From positions 1 through 20,434 of IMG/VR virus record IMGVR_UViG_3300048928_000301: a stretch of 20,434 bases of DNA. The stretch is one strand, 5' to 3'. The notes beneath the pieces were generated by a model. That model saw only the letters and a program-made list of their open reading frames with translations, made no database searches and had not been told where the DNA came from. Each line of letters starts with the position of its first letter. Position 1 is the first letter of the stretch. The DNA comes from a virus. The translations under genes were made by a program, and so were the position numbers. This document shows, piece by piece, positions 5,406-11,375 of this stretch.

Positions 5406-5855
5406 TTATCGCCCTTCTCTATTCTCGTCGGATAGGTTTCCTGATCCTTTTGTCGGCGAACCTTGCGCAACCAATACCGGCGCAATTTCTGCCACAGCTC
5501 CACGGAAAGGCGTGCCAGCAAGAGCATCAGCCAAGCCAAGTATTTTCGAATTACGTGCATTGGCCAGTTCCCTCTCAGACTGGTAGGCTTTTTCTGATGC
5601 TTCGAGCGCGGCCTTGTACGCACGAGCAATGGCCGCATAAGCGGACACAGGCATGTCTTTGATGGATCGATAGCGAAGACGGTGCATCCAAGAGGCAGGC
5701 GCGCCATACATGCGCTCTGCTCGGTGCATGGCAGCATCTACCGTGTCACCCGGACCGCGGTAGGAACTCTGGAGAATGAAATCACTCATTCCCTTAGCGC
5801 TGCTGACAAACTCGACACTCATTTTGTCAGATCCTTCAAAACCTTTGTCGGACAT
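5406..5855 (-). CDS. 149-residue phage protein of unknown function
   Basis: The central part, from about residue 35, has YRGPGDTVDAAMHRAERMYGAP followed by helix-rich sequence ending in a long Ala/Glu/Ser stretch, then a Gly/Ser-rich tail. A motif of this kind (GDT-x5-HRAE) occurs in hypothetical proteins of rhizobial phages, as far as I recall. Two starts are possible: ATG 5855 behind GGAGAG, or ATG 5822 behind AAGGA, the latter overlapping the stop of an upstream frame (ATGA). Confidence 0.65.
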   Translation of the reverse strand: MSDKGFEGSDKMSVEFVSSAKGMSDFILQSSYRGPGDTVDAAMHRAERMYGAPASWMHRLRYRSIKDMPVSAYAAIARAYKAALEASEKAYQSERELANARNSKILGLADALAGTPFRGAVAEIAPVLVAQGSPTKGSGNLSDENREGR

Positions 5856-6181
5856 TGCAAAGCTCTCCAGTTACGTTTCAGGACAGAGACGAACTGAAAC
5901 GAAACATTCGCTGGAGAGATTGTTTGGAACACATCGGGCACGCGGCGTGGCGCGTTTTGCAGAACGCACGAAAGGCAGCGATAGCCCGAAGAAATGACGC
6001 GGATGCAGAAATGCGTGAGCCTGCTTTGTTCAAGGTTGAGGGGAAAGCCCCGGTCACGCGCCGCCAAGATGCACCCGCTACAGCCGAAGAACTTGGCGGA
6101 CAGGCATTCGCGCCCGAAAGATCGCGCAATAAACGCTCGGCTGATTTTTGAATTTGAATTGGACAGGATGTTCCTCATCAT
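5819..6181 (-). CDS. 120-residue Cys/Arg-rich frame, uncertain gene
   Basis: This frame fills the only sizeable hole in the leftward operon. In favour: it starts six bases after the stop of the preceding gene and its TGA overlaps the alternative ATG at 5822 by ATGA, as in its neighbours. Against: its composition (many Cys, Ser, Arg and Phe, for example FFGCSGCILAARDRGFPLN) is unlike the neighbouring phage proteins, and the ribosome site is weak. An 8-bp inverted repeat, GGACAGGA/TCCTGTCC (6161-6168 and 6192-6199), spans its start. It could be a genuine unknown gene or an untranslated leader. Confidence 0.4.
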   Translation of the reverse strand: MMRNILSNSNSKISRAFIARSFGRECLSAKFFGCSGCILAARDRGFPLNLEQSRLTHFCIRVISSGYRCLSCVLQNAPRRVPDVFQTISPANVSFQFVSVLKRNWRALQCPTKVLKDLTK

Positions 6182-6187
6182 CGCCGC

Positions 6188-6391
6188 CTATTCCTGTCCA
6201 GAAAGGAGAGCCTCACCGCGCTTATTGAAGGCGGTGAGGCTTTTCTCGTCTGCTGCTTGGGAGGCGGGAGACGCAGACGAAAGGAGGTTGCGTAAAGCAT
6301 GCTGACGAGTGCGACCGCTCGCGCCTTTGCCGGTGATCTGGCAAGTCGCAATGAAATTACCGTCTTGTGTGGGATATACGGTCGCGCTCAT
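6188..6391 (-). CDS. 67-residue phage protein of unknown function
   Basis: It begins two codons after the GapR-like gene. The start (MSATVYPTQDGNFIATCQIT) looks like two beta strands, followed by TGKGASGRTRQHALRNLLS and a helix, resembling a small antitoxin-like or dsRNA-binding-like fold, though no family match can be claimed. A perfect 10-bp inverted repeat lies inside its last third (6210-6240). Confidence 0.6.
   Translation of the reverse strand: MSATVYPTQDGNFIATCQITGKGASGRTRQHALRNLLSSASPASQAADEKSLTAFNKRGEALLSGQE
6210..6240. repeat. Perfect 10-bp inverted repeat within a coding region
   Basis: GCCTCACCGC at 6210-6219 and GCGGTGAGGC at 6231-6240 flank an 11-base loop. On the plus strand TTTTCTC follows, so it has the look of a terminator for transcripts running against the leftward operon. 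On the operon mRNA it would form a stable hairpin just before the next start codon. Confidence 0.5.
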
Positions 6392-6394
6392 GGC

Positions 6395-6655
6395 TCAGCT
6401 CATGCCCAATGCGTCCATGTAAAGCTGAAGCATTGCTTCGGCTTCTTGGCGCTCATGATCTTCTTTTTTACGGAGACGGATAATTTCGCGAACAACGGGC
6501 GCTTGGAAACCAGAGCCTTTCAGTTCCGCATAAACTTCCTTGATGTCGTCGCCGATGGTGTTTTTTTCTTCTTCAAGGCGCTCAATACGCTCGATGAAGG
6601 CACGCAATTGGCCGACAGCAATTGTCTGGGCTTCCGATGTAAAATCGTCGCTCAT
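6395..6655 (-). CDS. GapR-like (DUF2312) DNA-binding protein, prophage paralogue
   Basis: The 86-residue protein matches the GapR/DUF2312 pattern closely: [35 protein letters not shown], then a C-terminal [11 protein letters not shown] end. GapR in Caulobacter is a nucleoid protein that binds overtwisted AT-rich DNA ahead of replication and transcription and stimulates topoisomerases. Cellular GapR is chromosomally encoded, so this is a phage-borne copy placed second in the early operon. ATG 6655 has an AGGA ribosome site and gives the family's usual length; ATG 6694, overlapping the Cro-like stop, would add 13 residues. A role in phage replication or DNA topology is inferred. Confidence 0.9.
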
Positions 6656-6690: not shown

Positions 6691-6897
6691 TCATGCGCTT
6701 ACCCTCGTGCGGGAGCGCTTCTTGGCATCGATTGCCAAACGGTCGATGAACGCTTTGGCAGGCCCACGGGTGGGAACGCCTTCGTTCTCCCAACGCCAAA
6801 CGGTTGAGAGGTTGACCCCGGCCATTTCGGCCAGCTGGGTCTGTGTCAACTTCAGTGTGCGACGGATCGCTGGGAGGTCGATGTTTGCGTTTGTCAT
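6691..6897 (-). CDS. Cro-like helix-turn-helix repressor
   Basis: The 68-residue protein starting at ATG 6897 ([15 protein letters not shown]) has an XRE-type helix-turn-helix: [20 protein letters not shown]. It is the first gene of the leftward operon and diverges from the S24 repressor, the position of Cro in lambdoid phages. The upstream in-frame ATGs at 6912 and 6903 lie in or before the -10 element, so they cannot start the protein from this promoter. Transcription should begin near 6897, making the message essentially leaderless. Its C-terminus overlaps the extended GapR start by four bases. Confidence 0.85.
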
Positions 6898-6899
6898 TC

Positions 6900-6948
6900 G
6901 CATAGTATGCATAACGCAAACTATCCCGTCAAGGCGAAACGCATACTA
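6900..6948. promoter_or_regulatory. Operator cluster of the immunity region
   Basis: Repressor-site repeats lie between the divergent cro-like and repressor genes: the near-palindrome GCATAGTATGC (6900-6910), AACGCAAACTA (6913-6923) and AACGCATACTA (6938-6948). All three recur exactly at 11008-11084. They overlap the -10 and spacer of the leftward promoter and the likely promoter of the repressor, so binding would control both. Which protein binds which site is inferred. Confidence 0.75.
6904..6932 (-). promoter_or_regulatory. Leftward early promoter
   Basis: On the minus strand, TTGACG (-35, 6932-6927), a 17-bp spacer and CATACT (-10, 6909-6904) make a good sigma-70 promoter reading into the Cro-like gene. 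The same TTGAC[G/T]-17-CATACT layout recurs at 11056-11084 for the rightward operon. Confidence 0.8.
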
Positions 6949-6968
6949 AAAATGTGCAATATGCAGTC

Positions 6969-7709
6969 ATGACAGAAGACACTCGCCCAGATCCAGCCAA
7001 ACGCCTTGAAGAAGCGCGCATTGCTCGCGGCTTTAAGAACGCAAAGGACGCAACAAATTATTTTGGCTGGTCATACGTGACTTATACGCAGCATGAGAGC
7101 GGGGAGCGCGGAATAACGCGAGCCGTCGAAAAGTATGCGAAAGCGTTCCGAGTTAGCCCTGGTTGGCTTCTGACTGGCGAAGGAAAAGGCCCGGACGGTG
7201 TTTTGGTTGAGTTTCCACCGGTCGAGGAAGAAACATTTACGCCATCAAAGACTAAGCCGAACGCCAGCTTCCCGCCTAAATATCAGAGCTTCCCGCAAGA
7301 TCACTCTATACCTCTGCTCGGACAAACAGCCGGAGGCCCTAACGGTCGTTTTGTTCTGAATGGAACCGAAATAGGCCGGGTGTTCTGCCCGCCAATGCTG
7401 GAAGGCGTTGAAGGAGCATATGCGGTAATGGTGTTCGGCACATCGATGGAGCCACGCTACTTCGCTGGGGAAACCGTGTGGGTTAATCCACACTTGCCCG
7501 TGCGTGCCGGGGACGACGTTATCGCGCAGCTTATTGAAGACGGCGAAGAAAACCCAGTCGAGAGCTATATCAAGCGCTTTGAATCTCGATCGTCTCGTGT
7601 CCTTCGCCTCTATCAGTACAATCCGGATGAAGGCGAAGAACGGGAATTGGAATTTGATGCTGATCGCGTGTTCTCAGTACACAAGATCGTATTCAAGGCC
7701 AACGCCTGA
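6969..7709 (+). CDS. CI/LexA-like phage repressor with S24 peptidase domain
   Basis: The 246-residue protein has an N-terminal helix-turn-helix (residues about 15-57) and a C-terminal S24 self-cleavage domain: nucleophile Ser near 159 in GTSMEP, catalytic Lys near 202 in SYIKRF, and an Ala-Gly cleavage site near 121-122 in GQTAGG. RecA filaments formed during DNA damage would trigger self-cleavage and induce the prophage. ATG 6969 is chosen; GTG 6954 would add five residues. No clear ribosome site precedes either, so the message may be leaderless, as lambda cI is when read from its maintenance promoter. Its 3' end overlaps a convergent gene by 36 bases. Confidence 0.92.
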   Translation: MTEDTRPDPAKRLEEARIARGFKNAKDATNYFGWSYVTYTQHESGERGITRAVEKYAKAFRVSPGWLLTGEGKGPDGVLVEFPPVEEETFTPSKTKPNASFPPKYQSFPQDHSIPLLGQTAGGPNGRFVLNGTEIGRVFCPPMLEGVEGAYAVMVFGTSMEPRYFAGETVWVNPHLPVRAGDDVIAQLIEDGEENPVESYIKRFESRSSRVLRLYQYNPDEGEERELEFDADRVFSVHKIVFKANA

Positions 7710-7955
7710 CGGGTCGCTATCCCGCCAAGTGGGCTTGATTGTCAGATTGCGCGCGTGTGGTGGTGCCGGAGGGCATTCGCCGCAGCGGATCTTATGGCAA
7801 AGGTCGCGATAGCTCTGCACTCCCAAGTCAGCCACACGCTTTAAACTTGATGTGTAGAGCATTCGGCTATGACCGCAATCATCGCAAGCGACATATACGC
7901 TGGACAGCTCAATAACTAGGCGTTTGCCTTCATCAGAAATTGGGCCGTCTAGCAT
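7674..7955 (-). CDS. 93-residue zinc-binding-type protein convergent with the repressor
   Basis: The protein has CDDC near residue 24 and CGEC near residue 58, so it may bind zinc, with a helix between them and a Pro-rich stretch after. Its start overlaps the stop of the upstream gene (TAATG), and its last 36 bases lie antisense to the end of the repressor gene. Both genes follow a LexA box at 8266-8280, so this pair is probably SOS-induced. A role in antagonising the repressor is possible but unproven; I know no family for it. Confidence 0.7.
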   Translation of the reverse strand: MLDGPISDEGKRLVIELSSVYVACDDCGHSRMLYTSSLKRVADLGVQSYRDLCHKIRCGECPPAPPHARNLTIKPTWRDSDPSGVGLEYDLVY

Positions 7956-8212
7956 TATACACGCTCCATCTCTTCGACTTCTGGCGGCAATGGGTCGCCA
8001 TGAGCATAGATGAGCTTTGGAGGATCGAAATCGCCTGTCTCAGCATCGCCTGTATTGGCGAAGGCAATTACCATTGGGCTGCTTTTCGCCATTCTCTCAG
8101 CAGTGCGCTTTGCATGCGCAGCGTCTTTTGCTACGAAAGGTGTGTCAGGGTTCAGCTTGCCCCGATAACCCTTGCTGTAGCTCTGCACGATGTAGTTTGT
8201 CTCCATGCTCAT
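7955..8212 (-). CDS. 85-residue phage protein, first gene of LexA-controlled pair
   Basis: ATG 8212 is preferred over 8218 because it lies eight bases after GGGAG. The product starts MSMETNYIVQSYSKGYRGKL, continues with a KDAAHAKRTAERMAKSSP helix and ends in an acidic tail. It looks like a small alpha/beta protein common in rhizobial phages, but I cannot name it. The LexA box lies about 54 bp upstream. Under SOS it would be expressed when the prophage is induced, as Tum is in phage 186. Confidence 0.7.
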   Translation of the reverse strand: MSMETNYIVQSYSKGYRGKLNPDTPFVAKDAAHAKRTAERMAKSSPMVIAFANTGDAETGDFDPPKLIYAHGDPLPPEVEEMERV

Positions 8213-8265
8213 TAACATTACTCCCTGTTCCGCTTGTCATGTGCGACAGGATGATTTATAGATTA

Positions 8266-8280
8266 GAACAAATCAAGAAC
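8266..8280 (-). promoter_or_regulatory. LexA (SOS) box, alphaproteobacterial type
   Basis: GTTC-N7-GTTC is exact on the minus strand (GAAC at 8266-8269 and 8277-8280 on the plus strand), the established LexA site of Alphaproteobacteria. A TATAAAT -10-like element lies a few bases downstream in the direction of the 8212 gene, so LexA bound here would block that promoter. The surrounding gap 8219-8397 otherwise shows no gene. Confidence 0.75.
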
Positions 8281-8397
8281 ATTCTTGAGGAAAGGTTAAT
8301 GGCGACTTGCCGCCGCAAAGGTTGCGATCAACGACAAGATAATCACAAACTTTGACTGTGGATAACGTGTAAAAATGCGAACGAAAGCCTTTGCCCC

Positions 8398-8438
8398 TTG
8401 ACACGACTTTCATTCCTTACTTCTCAGCTAACTGAGAA
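8398..8438 (+). promoter_or_regulatory. Promoter/operator candidate of the DprA-like cassette
   Basis: TTGACA at 8398-8403 is a perfect -35. A 7-bp palindrome, TTCTCAG/CTGAGAA with a four-base centre (8421-8438), occupies where the -10 would be, and no good -10 is seen at 17 bp. The palindrome could be an operator or an mRNA hairpin in the leader; it is embedded in a wider CACGA/TCGTG pairing. The ribosome site GGGGGG (8473-8478) and a TTG start follow. Confidence 0.45.
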
Positions 8439-8483
8439 TCGTGTTAAAAATTAACAAATTGCTTTTTACTCTGGGGGGTTAAA

Positions 8484-9251
8484 TTGCTCTTAGATACGGG
8501 TACTAGAACGTTGGTTGCACAACAGAGACATACAGATAGCACGTTTAATCGACGGTCTCGTTATGTCGCACCTGCATCCGTTTTTGAAACGCCCTTAAGC
8601 GAGCTATTATCCCATGCTGGCCGCTCCATCACAAAGCAGCAAGAGAGCTTATTTCGTAAGCCTGAAGAAAATGATCCTGTTATATTTTGGTCGGGAGATA
8701 TCGACCTTTTAAAATTACCCAGTGTTTCCGTTATTGGTGCTCGCTCAGTAACTGAGGAAGGTCGCGCGCGCGCGCGCCGGGTAGCGAAGGGCTTGGCTTC
8801 AGCGGGCGTAGTTGTGACCAGTGGTCTTGCTAAGGGTGTAGATACAGCGGCCCATAGTGGCGTCATTGCAGCTGGTGGCAAAACAATTGCTGTCATTGGC
8901 ACCCCCTTAAATAAAGCTTATCCTGCGGAAAATACCCAGCTACAAGAAACAATATACACCAATCATCTACTCATATCGCAATTTCAGCCGGGGCAGAGGA
9001 CATTTCAATCTGACTTCCCTAAACGTAATCGACTGATGGCAGCAATATCTGATGCCAGCGTTATAGTTGAAGCGTCCGATACCTCTGGTACACTTCATCA
9101 AGCAGCTGAATGTATCCGCCTTGGTCGATGGTTGTTTATAATGCGATCTGTCGTTGAAGATGAAAAGTTAACTTGGCCTAAGCGCTTTTTGGATAATCCG
9201 AAAACGATTGTTCTGACCAGTGTTAATGACATTCTAAATCGGATTTTATAA
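8484..9251 (+). CDS. DprA/Smf-like Rossmann (SLOG-type) protein, no SAM or WH domain
   Basis: The 255-residue product starts at TTG 8484 behind a GGGGGG ribosome site. From residue about 80 it follows DprA closely: SVIGAR (82-87), SGLAKGVDTAAH (113-124), AVIGTPLNKAYPAEN (136-150), FPKRNRLMAA (178-187), VIVEASDTSGTL (193-204). DprA binds single-stranded DNA and loads RecA in natural transformation. The usual N-terminal SAM and C-terminal winged-helix domains are absent; about 80 residues of unrelated sequence precede the core. One base separates it from a phosphoribosyltransferase gene, so the pair should be coupled. Base composition is AT-rich compared with its neighbours, suggesting transfer. 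A nucleotide-sensing SLOG role in defence is an alternative. Confidence 0.85.
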   Translation: MLLDTGTRTLVAQQRHTDSTFNRRSRYVAPASVFETPLSELLSHAGRSITKQQESLFRKPEENDPVIFWSGDIDLLKLPSVSVIGARSVTEEGRARARRVAKGLASAGVVVTSGLAKGVDTAAHSGVIAAGGKTIAVIGTPLNKAYPAENTQLQETIYTNHLLISQFQPGQRTFQSDFPKRNRLMAAISDASVIVEASDTSGTLHQAAECIRLGRWLFIMRSVVEDEKLTWPKRFLDNPKTIVLTSVNDILNRIL

Positions 9252-9252
9252 C

Positions 9253-9912
9253 ATGCAGGTGCATTATTGTTGTGTTTATTATTCCGAGCTAGCTCATAAA
9301 AACGTGGCAAGAACAGAGCCTTACTGGCAATCTAGGGCTTTTTCTTGGGCTGTTAAAACAGGTGAATTTAAGAATAATTTTACTGTTATATATCGCAAAA
9401 AGCCAATTAGTATAAATAAAACAAACATTCATAGGGCGAGAGAGATCTTTGGAAGCTTTATTGAAGCTATTCTTAAGCAAGAAAAAGTTGATGATGATGT
9501 GCTCTTGATTCCCATCCCTTCTAGAGACGCGACATTAGAAGTAGATAATTATCGATCACTAATGATGGCAAAATGTTCGCTGGTTAATAGTGATAGGAAG
9601 CCTAATATATATGATGGCTTAAGATGGTCAGAGCCCCTTAAAAAAGCACACGAAGGTGGGCCGCGCAGCAGAGAAGAACTAAAAAAGTATCTAAAGTTGA
9701 TAAGTGACGTTAAAGGTAAAAAAGCGTTTCTGATTGATGATATTTTCACAAAAGGCGGTACTTTACTTGCATCAAAGGACGCACTCGAAGCAGCGGGTGT
9801 GGAGGTTCTCGGCGCAATTACTGCCGCAAAAACAGTTTATGATTTTAATACTGAGCCATTTGGCTACCAATGTATCGACCTGAGTAACGAACTCAATGAC
9901 TATGTTGCTTAG
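9253..9912 (+). CDS. ComFC-like type I phosphoribosyltransferase
   Basis: The 219-residue protein carries the PRPP-binding loop AFLIDDIFTKGGTL (158-171) of type I phosphoribosyltransferases, and LIPIPS near 85-90 where ComF proteins have VPVPL. The N-terminal half is not that of a nucleobase salvage enzyme, and the CxxC zinc motif usual in ComFC is absent. ComFC takes part in DNA uptake and is reported to work with ComFA and DprA in Bacillus. ATG 9253 starts one base after the dprA-like stop with only a weak ribosome site, fitting translational coupling. Transferase activity and substrate are unknown. Confidence 0.82.
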   Translation: MQVHYCCVYYSELAHKNVARTEPYWQSRAFSWAVKTGEFKNNFTVIYRKKPISINKTNIHRAREIFGSFIEAILKQEKVDDDVLLIPIPSRDATLEVDNYRSLMMAKCSLVNSDRKPNIYDGLRWSEPLKKAHEGGPRSREELKKYLKLISDVKGKKAFLIDDIFTKGGTLLASKDALEAAGVEVLGAITAAKTVYDFNTEPFGYQCIDLSNELNDYVA

Positions 9913-9918
9913 GCTATA

Positions 9919-9943
9919 CCCCGCTTCAGCGGAGTTTCTTTTT
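9919..9943 (+). terminator. Terminator of the DprA-like/PRTase cassette
   Basis: CCGC and GCGG around a TTCA loop (9921-9932) precede TTTCTTTTT, immediately after the PRTase stop. The stem is short, so it is probably weak, but it is well placed. Confidence 0.55.
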
Positions 9944-9946
9944 GCC

Positions 9947-9981
9947 GCAAAATAAAACTCCCCGACCGTCAGGATGGGGAG
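9947..9981 (-). terminator. Terminator downstream of csbD-like gene
   Basis: On the minus strand CTCCCC (9981-9976) pairs with GGGGAG (9963-9958), followed by TTTTATTTT. It lies about 20 bp after the csbD stop and faces the cassette's terminator. Confidence 0.75.
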
Positions 9982-9999
9982 ATAGAATTGGTAAATGAG

Positions 10000-10191
10000 T
10001 TAAGCCTTGTCGACTGCAGACTTTACAGCGTTCTTTGCCTTGCCTTTTGCGTCCTGAGCCTTGCCCTTTAACTTCTGGGCTGCGCCCTCTGCCTCAACCT
10101 TTCGGTTGCCAGATAGCTTGCCAGCTTCTTCCTTAATGGCTCCGCCAGCCTGATTGGCTTTTCCCTTGATTTTATCGGTGGTGCTGCTCAT
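10000..10191 (-). CDS. CsbD-family stress protein
   Basis: ATG 10191, behind GGATGAAGAG, gives 63 residues: MSSTTDKIKGKANQAGGAIK and then repeated K-G-K-A/E blocks. The pattern is the CsbD family, small hydrophilic, Lys/Ala/Gly-rich helical proteins induced by general stress. It is preceded by an EcfG-type promoter at 10233-10257 and followed by its own terminator, so it is a single-gene unit. Its place inside a prophage suggests a moron gene that benefits the lysogen. The biochemical function of CsbD is not established. Confidence 0.9.
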   Translation of the reverse strand: MSSTTDKIKGKANQAGGAIKEEAGKLSGNRKVEAEGAAQKLKGKAQDAKGKAKNAVKSAVDKA

Positions 10192-10232
10192 CTCTTCATC
10201 CTTTATTGATGGGAAATTCTTCGCAGCTGGAA

Positions 10233-10257
10233 AACGAAGATACAGCCAAAACGTTCC
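10233..10257 (-). promoter_or_regulatory. EcfG-type general-stress promoter of csbD
   Basis: GGAAC (10257-10253), exactly 16 bases, then CGTT (10236-10233) on the minus strand matches the alphaproteobacterial EcfG consensus GGAAC-N16/17-CGTT. The predicted start is about 30-35 bp before the csbD ATG. I infer control by the PhyR/NepR/EcfG cascade of the host. Confidence 0.75.
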
Positions 10258-10346
10258 GCTGAAATCGATGTGGATAAACGCCTTGGTGAGGCGCGCCCCG
10301 CTCTTCGGTTCACATCTCTCCACGTGCGTCTCTTATTTTGCATGTA

Positions 10347-10380
10347 CGTAAAACCCGCCGCAATCAGCTTGCAACGGGTT
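10347..10380 (-). terminator. Possible terminator of the lipoprotein gene
   Basis: On the minus strand AACCCG (10380-10375) pairs with CGGGTT (10357-10352), followed by only two further T residues. The stem fits but the T-run is short. Confidence 0.4.
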
Positions 10381-10406
10381 CACTCATTTTAAACCTGGCA
10401 ATCTTG

Positions 10407-10829
10407 TTACCGAGGGCCTCGCTTGACAGGTGTGAAGTCATCAGACTCAATAAACTTGGCGCCTCGACTATTATTGGTCGGACGAACAATCTGCGGTCTA
10501 TCCGGGCGGCTGTCTGGGCGAACTCCCGGCGGATTTGTCGGGCGGTAATCGGGCCGGGTGTTTGGACGGTTATCTGGGCGAGTATATTGATAATCTGGAC
10601 GGCGCGATGGTCGATCGTAGCGATCGCCTCTACGATAATAATCACGGTAATATCGGTCATCGCGATACCGCCGAGAATCATAACGCGGGCCGGAACTGTA
10701 AATCACAGTTGAGCCGCCATAGTATCCATCATATCCGCCACCGCTGTACGGATCGTTCACGCAGCCCATCAGCACAATAGAAACTATGCCCACTGACGCT
10801 GCTGATAAAATCTTCTTAATCGAGACCAT
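10407..10829 (-). CDS. Tyr/Arg/Pro-rich lipoprotein
   Basis: ATG 10829, behind GGAGAA, gives 140 residues. The first 22 are a signal peptide with positive start (MVSIKKILS), a hydrophobic core and a lipobox L-M-G-C with lipidated Cys23. The mature part is low complexity: Gly/Tyr-rich first, then repeated D-R/Y-Y-R and R-P-D-x-R blocks, ending with a charged tail. No catalytic fold is visible; such sequences may bind surface polymers or cell wall. It is likely anchored in the membrane facing the periplasm. Transcription is leftward, like csbD, and opposite to the phage operon beginning at 11056. Confidence 0.8.
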   Translation of the reverse strand: MVSIKKILSAASVGIVSIVLMGCVNDPYSGGGYDGYYGGSTVIYSSGPRYDSRRYRDDRYYRDYYRRGDRYDRPSRRPDYQYTRPDNRPNTRPDYRPTNPPGVRPDSRPDRPQIVRPTNNSRGAKFIESDDFTPVKRGPR

Positions 10830-11007
10830 CAAAATTCTCCGCGTGCGCGTAATGTAAACATGCAGATAACCTGATCGGTCCGAGTTGCAAGGGCAAGTCA
10901 CGATAAAAATCAGACTGCATGGACATGGCCATGGGACAAGATCGCGCCACCCCTGATTTGGAGGTATCTCTGCGCTGCGATTCTATCAGACCTCCCTTAT
11001 GATCAAT

Positions 11008-11084
11008 GCATAGTATGCGTTTATCACTTTAATTCTCGTTATGCATATTTTTAGATTGACTGCGTAGTTTGCGTTATGCATACT
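11008..11084 (+). promoter_or_regulatory. Rightward early promoter with operators
   Basis: TTGACT (11056-11061), a 17-bp spacer and CATACT (11079-11084) form the promoter of the rightward operon. Operator repeats surround it: GCATAGTATGC (11008-11018), TAGTATGCGTT (11011-11021), CGTTATGCATA (11037-11047) and TAGTTTGCGTTATGCATACT (11065-11084), the last an exact 20-base inverse copy of 6904-6923. The phage repressor should silence this promoter in the lysogen. A start in the -10 (ATG 11076) is thereby excluded for the first gene. The stretch 10830-11007 contains no gene I can support. Confidence 0.82.
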
Positions 11085-11114
11085 GCTCTCAACGAACGAG
11101 TTGGGAGCAACGAA

Positions 11115-11375
11115 ATGCACTCCACATACCAGATCACCGGAAACGACCTTGCGAGAGCCTTTGCAGGCATTGCGCAGACGGTAAACAAGCCACGCTTTTT
11201 GCGTGACGTTCTCGCCATCAAGAAAGAGCGTGGCGACGAGGATTGCGCCTATTTCGAGCTTAACGCTCGCTACTACGCCAATCGTCTGAACTCGACTGTT
11301 GAAGGCGCTCATTACACTGCAAGCCGTGCACCAAGCATGAAGCGCTTCGCAGGAATGCTTGAGGAGTTTCTGTGA
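11115..11375 (+). CDS. 86-residue phage protein, first gene of rightward operon
   Basis: ATG 11115 follows GGGAG by seven bases; the earlier ATG at 11076 lies in the promoter. The protein starts MHSTYQITGNDLARAFAGIA and is rich in Arg and aromatic residues with mixed helix. I do not recognise it. Being first behind a repressed strong promoter, it is made immediately on induction or infection. Its stop overlaps the next start (TGATG). Confidence 0.65.
   Translation: MHSTYQITGNDLARAFAGIAQTVNKPRFLRDVLAIKKERGDEDCAYFELNARYYANRLNSTVEGAHYTASRAPSMKRFAGMLEEFL

Follow-up and report, generated by a model that had tools for sequence, protein, structure and literature searches.

The sequence studied is a 20.4-kb viral contig (IMG/VR record IMGVR_UViG_3300048928_000301, positions 1 to 20,434; the window hereafter), in which an S24-type repressor gene (6969..7709, plus strand) lies between two outward-facing early promoters. 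The leftward promoter, PR (6904..6932, minus strand; TTGACG-17-CATACT), precedes a cro-like helix-turn-helix (HTH) gene of the XRE type (6691..6897, minus strand), a phrog_4212 protein, and the replication genes. The rightward promoter, PL (11056..11084, plus strand; TTGACT-17-CATACT), precedes an open reading frame (ORF) of 86 amino acids (11116..11375, plus strand; ATG at 11116, with GGGAG ahead of it) and the genes for an ERF annealing protein, an exonuclease, and an integrase. The interval between the two promoters holds the repressor, two small genes on the other strand (p7674 and p7955), a ShosA/ShosT pair, a CsbD protein, and a lipoprotein.

The two promoters share a long inverted repeat. 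The 20-base sequence AGTATGCATAACGCAAACTA occurs at 6904-6923 and, as an inverted copy, at 11065-11084; GCATAGTATGC is present twice, at 6900 and 11008, AAACGCATACTA lies at 6937 with an inverted copy at 11011, and a AACGCATACTA pair is also found in the window. The initial annotation had placed its repeats correctly to within a base or two, and the promoter pattern it described, TTGAC[G/T]-17-CATACT with a shared 20 bp over the -10, is seen in the window, but the repeat is longer than had been claimed. In full, it extends over 29 nt, from the -35 to the -10 of both promoters, with 90% complementarity, 20 identical bases, and an arm-to-arm distance of 4,123 nt. This pair is the longest exact inverted repeat of the 20.4-kb record (20 nt), the runner-up having 14 nt, and 30 Markov shuffles gave 13-15 nt. 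Comparison of the PR region with the 8 kb downstream gave an ungapped score of 22.4, and the highest value among 20 shuffles was 14.4. The repeat shared by PR and PL is real, and not a product of chance. The match of PR and PL to the promoter consensus is in itself weak (9/12), and a scan of the window gave 11 such matches, where 5.9 were expected; the scan was dropped as proof of the promoters, being too noisy, and it is conservation that supports them, PR being conserved in three related records (L008, L003, and L004).

The -10 of each promoter is covered by one strong candidate operator, a 19-bp dyad of the form AGTATGC-N5-GCATACT, which is matched at 13 of 14 positions at two window sites only, OR1 on PR (6904..6922; AGTATGC-ATAAC-GCAAACT) and OL1 on PL (11066..11084; AGTTTGC-GTTAT-GCATACT). 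Phylogenetic footprints indicate that both of these sites, together with weaker conserved neighbours, are retained in the relatives, which makes two or three candidate sites per promoter. Next to PR, the OR2 candidate (6929..6947), with one perfect half, GCATACT, lies upstream of the -35, and its GTATGCGTTTCG is kept in four relatives, while the putative OR3 (6951..6966), the conserved TGCATATTGCACAT, adjoins the start of the repressor and is also conserved in the footprints of four relatives. Next to PL, the OL3 candidate (11012..11030) has a perfect half, AGTATGC, and the OL2 candidate (11031..11049; AATTCTC-GTTAT-GCATATT) is conserved in the footprints of five relatives, but its window sequence scores too low to pass the threshold of the scan. 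The dyad scan of the window found no strong operator in the block between PR and PL.

The same layout is found in approximately 40 related records, with some ten operator codes that change at both promoters together, and the code tracks the DNA-binding domain of the repressor, even when the rest of this protein is of another type. A check of the relatives for the same repeats recovered the 20-base pair in L008, which has a repressor 98% identical to that of the window and a wholly different cargo between copies 3.8 kb apart, and the same code in L003 and L004 (repressor identity of 84% and 83%; 2.8 and 3.5 kb apart), as well as the PL half in L005, where PR is off the contig. The cargo differs among these relatives, and the block between the promoters, replaced in the three that retain the whole repeat and devoid of strong operators, is accessory, as the initial annotation had proposed. 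In L006, the C-terminal part of the repressor is 96% identical to that of the window (143/149), and the HTH part 47% (42/90); here, ATCGTAC-N5-GTACGAT replaces AGTATGC-N5-GCATACT at both promoters, with the 7-5-7 geometry unchanged. Short repressors without the S24 domain, but with an L006-type HTH, are accompanied by the same CGTACATAACGTACGA / TCGTACGTTTTGTACG pair (L096, L106, L108, L109, L114, and L115).

The covariation was quantified in 40 records, which fall into 13 HTH clusters. The median score of the PR of one record against the PL of another was 15.0 within the same HTH type and 7.6 between different types (95th percentile 10.4). Each PR scored a median of 17.1 against the PL of its own record, and the Mantel correlation was 0.73, with none of 2000 permutations as high. 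Given that the code changes jointly at both ends and follows the DNA-binding domain, one repressor very probably controls both PR and PL, as the initial annotation had proposed, and the L006 case represents a natural swap, found in public sequences, in which a single repressor very probably governs two distant promoters. The likeness of PR and PL might also reflect common descent through duplication, with no shared control, as the -35, spacer, and -10 common to both promoters would suggest. This is highly improbable, as the pair shifts jointly to unrelated sequences in the relatives with other HTHs, which duplication alone does not explain.

The region is, with a probability of around 90%, a lambda-type bipartite OL/OR immunity region of a temperate alphaproteobacterial phage, in which the S24 repressor would silence both PR and PL, leaving a cargo slot that could be expressed in the lysogen. 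The repressor would bind the 19-bp operators over the -10 of PR and PL, with the weaker flanking sites assisting, and both lytic operons would be off in the lysogen, that is, the cro-like and replication genes behind PR and the recombination and integrase genes behind PL. Under SOS conditions, the repressor would be expected to cleave itself, which would open both operons. The cargo between the repressor and PL belongs to neither of the repressed operons and has no strong operators, and could thus be expressed during lysogeny, like rexAB of lambda. The sequence directly shows the sites and where they lie on the promoters, that they covary with the HTH at PR as well as at PL, and that the cargo turns over, and from these we infer binding, repression, expression of the cargo, and induction through self-cleavage.

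A number of points weigh against this interpretation. The flanking sites OR2, OR3, OL2, and OL3 are weak, and their identification is based on conservation. The score of each PR against its own PL is biased upward by the selection of PL, in each record, as the best partner of PR, and the Mantel correlation is inflated by kinship among the records. In the same scan, approximately 10 of the 31 close S24 loci had no clear shared repeat, and this repeat was hardly ever found among the more distant relatives. The comparison between records is less affected by the selection of PL, and the L006 swap is independent of it. The cro-like protein may also bind the same sites. In its stronger form, this alternative would have the sites serving chiefly the cro-like protein or another regulator, with the S24 repressor limited to the PR end, which would fit the location of the cro-like gene at PR and the use of both OL and OR by the Cro protein of lambda (PMC8630535). 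This appears very improbable, given that the code at PR and PL alike goes with the HTH of the repressor, both in the L006 swap and in the short repressors that share the L006 HTH, and that the dual sites are present in L006, where a homologue of the cro-like protein of the window was not detected.

The bipartite arrangement is known from lambda and phage 16-3, of which the window is a further example, with a slot for defence genes. Like the cI-rexA-rexB region of lambda, it combines a single repressor, outward-facing early promoters with related operators, and accessory genes between the repressor and PL, the site of the exclusion genes in lambda (PMC8630535, PMC12894663), and the cro-like gene is also divergent at PR. 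The window differs from lambda in its span (4.1 kb, compared with 2.3 kb), in its S24 repressor of another branch, in its cargo, which is ShosTA-like and includes genes on the other strand, and in the LexA-box gene pair that lies between the repressor and the cargo. The immC region of Rhizobium/Sinorhizobium phage 16-3 has a homologous C repressor, with approximately 40% identity over the C-terminal domain, a leftward PR, and a rightward PL leading to the integrase, and the record of this phage annotates OR1/OR2 on Pr and OL1/OL2 on PL as bound by the C repressor. Phage 16-3 has different operator letters, its PL starts about 30 bp past the stop of the repressor, it has no cargo, and the module of p7955 and its LexA box was not recognised there, the search of phage records having returned no p7955 homologue.

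The initial annotation had considered the 4-kb spacing of the promoters to be unusual, which was not borne out by the relatives. Across the 40 records, the distance from PR to PL ranges from 0.8 to about 4.2 kb, with a median of 2.2 kb, and exceeds 4 kb in five records, including the window. Phages free of cargo have a distance of approximately 1.2 kb, and phage 16-3, approximately 0.85 kb between OL and OR. The distance is set by the cargo slot, and is not special in itself. A loop bridged by the repressor and enclosing the cargo could be added to the bipartite arrangement, as a means of tuning repression or the expression of the cargo. The 4.1 kb would be no obstacle, since the CI repressor of lambda forms an OL-OR loop over 2.3 kb in vivo (PMC3708714) and loops over 20 kb with an efficiency of about 16% (PMC8053113), and two to three candidate sites are available at each end here. 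The distance varies over the range given above with no visible constraint, and the short non-S24 repressors share the same layout, which makes this loop a possible, but rather doubtful, component of the system.

In the window, the cargo begins with adjacent genes for a DprA-like (DprA/SMF) ShosA protein (8484..9251, plus strand; PADLOC ShosA, 1.6e-69) and a ShosT-like phosphoribosyltransferase (9253..9912, plus strand; PADLOC ShosT, 5.3e-9), arranged as in the ShosTA defence system. The pair is ShosTA-like, and a role in defence is predicted. A perfect 7-nt inverted repeat, TTCTCAG-CTAA-CTGAGAA (8421-8438), is found upstream of the ShosA-like gene, and may be a site through which the pair regulates itself. 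These genes are followed by those for a CsbD-like stress protein (10000..10185, minus strand) and a predicted lipoprotein (10407..10838, minus strand). The stretch around the CsbD gene (window 9918-10315) recurs as cargo, with approximately 80% identity, in L095 (4390-4783) and L096 (7442-7842), which have different repressors, as would a mobile cassette within the slot.

In other records, the slot contains an AAA/DUF4276 pair (PADLOC HEC-01), a GmrSD-type protein (HEC-06), a HicA-type toxin and its partner, a RelA/SpoT-domain protein, SocA/Panacea antitoxins, or a Gp49/HTH_37 pair (HigBA type), as well as GNAT, DUF1828, DUF3800, NYN, and other proteins, while in L023 it contains p7955 only. 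A near-identical cargo protein of 279 amino acids is found beside PL in three phages with different operator codes (L107, at 5732-6571, L112, and L114). Similar small slots of high turnover, located by the repressor and occupied by anti-phage or toxin-antitoxin genes, are known from prophage hotspots of the K139-like (PMC9122126) and Gifsy (PMC12724215) types, which belong to other phage groups, whereas the slot of the window is bounded by p7955 and OL3. A defence-gene slot with clear boundaries (p7955 and OL), in phages that infect alphaproteobacteria, Ochrobactrum-like ones among them, may be useful for finding new anti-phage genes.

The two arms of the repeat could also be read as sites of recombination that removes the block, or flips it, given that they have 20 identical bases in inverted orientation, and that close relatives differ in their cargo. 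Recombination between inverted repeats would lead to inversion rather than removal, and in all the records compared, the direction of p7955 relative to the repressor is constant, with no inverted block being seen. The homology between the window and its relatives breaks at about 8,316-8,367 and 10,979-11,091, rather than at the repeats themselves, and the sequence of the repeat changes along with the repressor, all of which makes a role in recombination extremely improbable, and the idea that the repeats remove the block was rejected.

The newly noticed feature of this region is an SOS (LexA) box placed inside the block, before a conserved small gene. This gene, p7955 (7955..8209, minus strand), is a conserved ORF of 85 amino acids that occurs with several repressor types, and is followed by p7674 (7674..7955, minus strand), a small Cys-rich ORF (CxxC..CxxC) that is linked to S24-type repressors and overlaps the 3' end of the repressor in antisense. 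Upstream of p7955 lies GTTCTTGATTTGTTC (8266..8280, minus strand), an exact match to the alphaproteobacterial LexA box, GTTC-N7-GTTC (PMC3091678), which is found in a roughly constant place in 26 of 26 records, against a general rate of 0.011 per 150 bp; the same type of box precedes recA in two host genomes. Given the conservation of this box, the host LexA most likely represses the first two genes of the block and releases them upon DNA damage. The proposal that the block escapes repression in the lysogen thus stands in part, in that no strong operator was found within it, but its first two genes lie behind an exact LexA box.

No weighty match to p7955 was found in Pfam, PHROG, phage records, PDB, or viral folds, whether by homology or by fold. 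The prophages Gifsy (GfoA/GftA), 186 (Tum), and N15 (AntC) have small antirepressors encoded behind a LexA box, and the repressors of Gifsy do not undergo cleavage (PMC3121763); in the present group, as with these antirepressors, many phages have a short repressor with no peptidase domain. By analogy, p7955 may be an antirepressor-like factor or a modulator of the SOS response. It differs from the known antirepressors in its location inside the immunity region, in the lack of any detected homology, and in its presence beside very different repressor types, which speaks against a simple, direct antirepressor. A constant LexA-box gene beside many operator codes may provide a lead on the induction of prophages with short, probably uncleavable repressors. 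More speculatively, and with a rather low probability, the immunity region may be modular, with the HTH and its two operator sets, the repressor tail (S24 or short), and the cargo slot all interchangeable, and the constant, SOS-controlled p7955 serving as a code-independent induction factor within the region.

The repressor of the window matches phrog_4, the 434 repressor (in the HTH), and the C repressors of phage 16-3 and its relatives, and it contains both a 434-like HTH and a LexA/CI-type (S24) peptidase domain. The catalytic residues were assigned by motif as Ser159 and Lys202, with a likely A-G cleavage site near residues 121-122; the GTSMEP and YIK-F motifs are conserved, and the TAGG site in the repressor of the window is likewise a motif assignment. 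In a DNA search of phage records, the sole match was the repressor of Agrobacterium phage Rivra. In this group, the same HTH is found with either an S24 tail or a conserved tail that is short (IRGEQEILxTLKRIEGL...DDQ...HHxxKP), with the operators tracking the HTH (L006, L095-L115, and L012). At the other side of PR, the start of the cro-like gene is probably the ATG at 6897, given that PR overlaps the start of the longer ORF, at 6912. The -10 of PR is six bases ahead of this ATG (window 6895-6909), and the cro-like mRNA may thus be leaderless.

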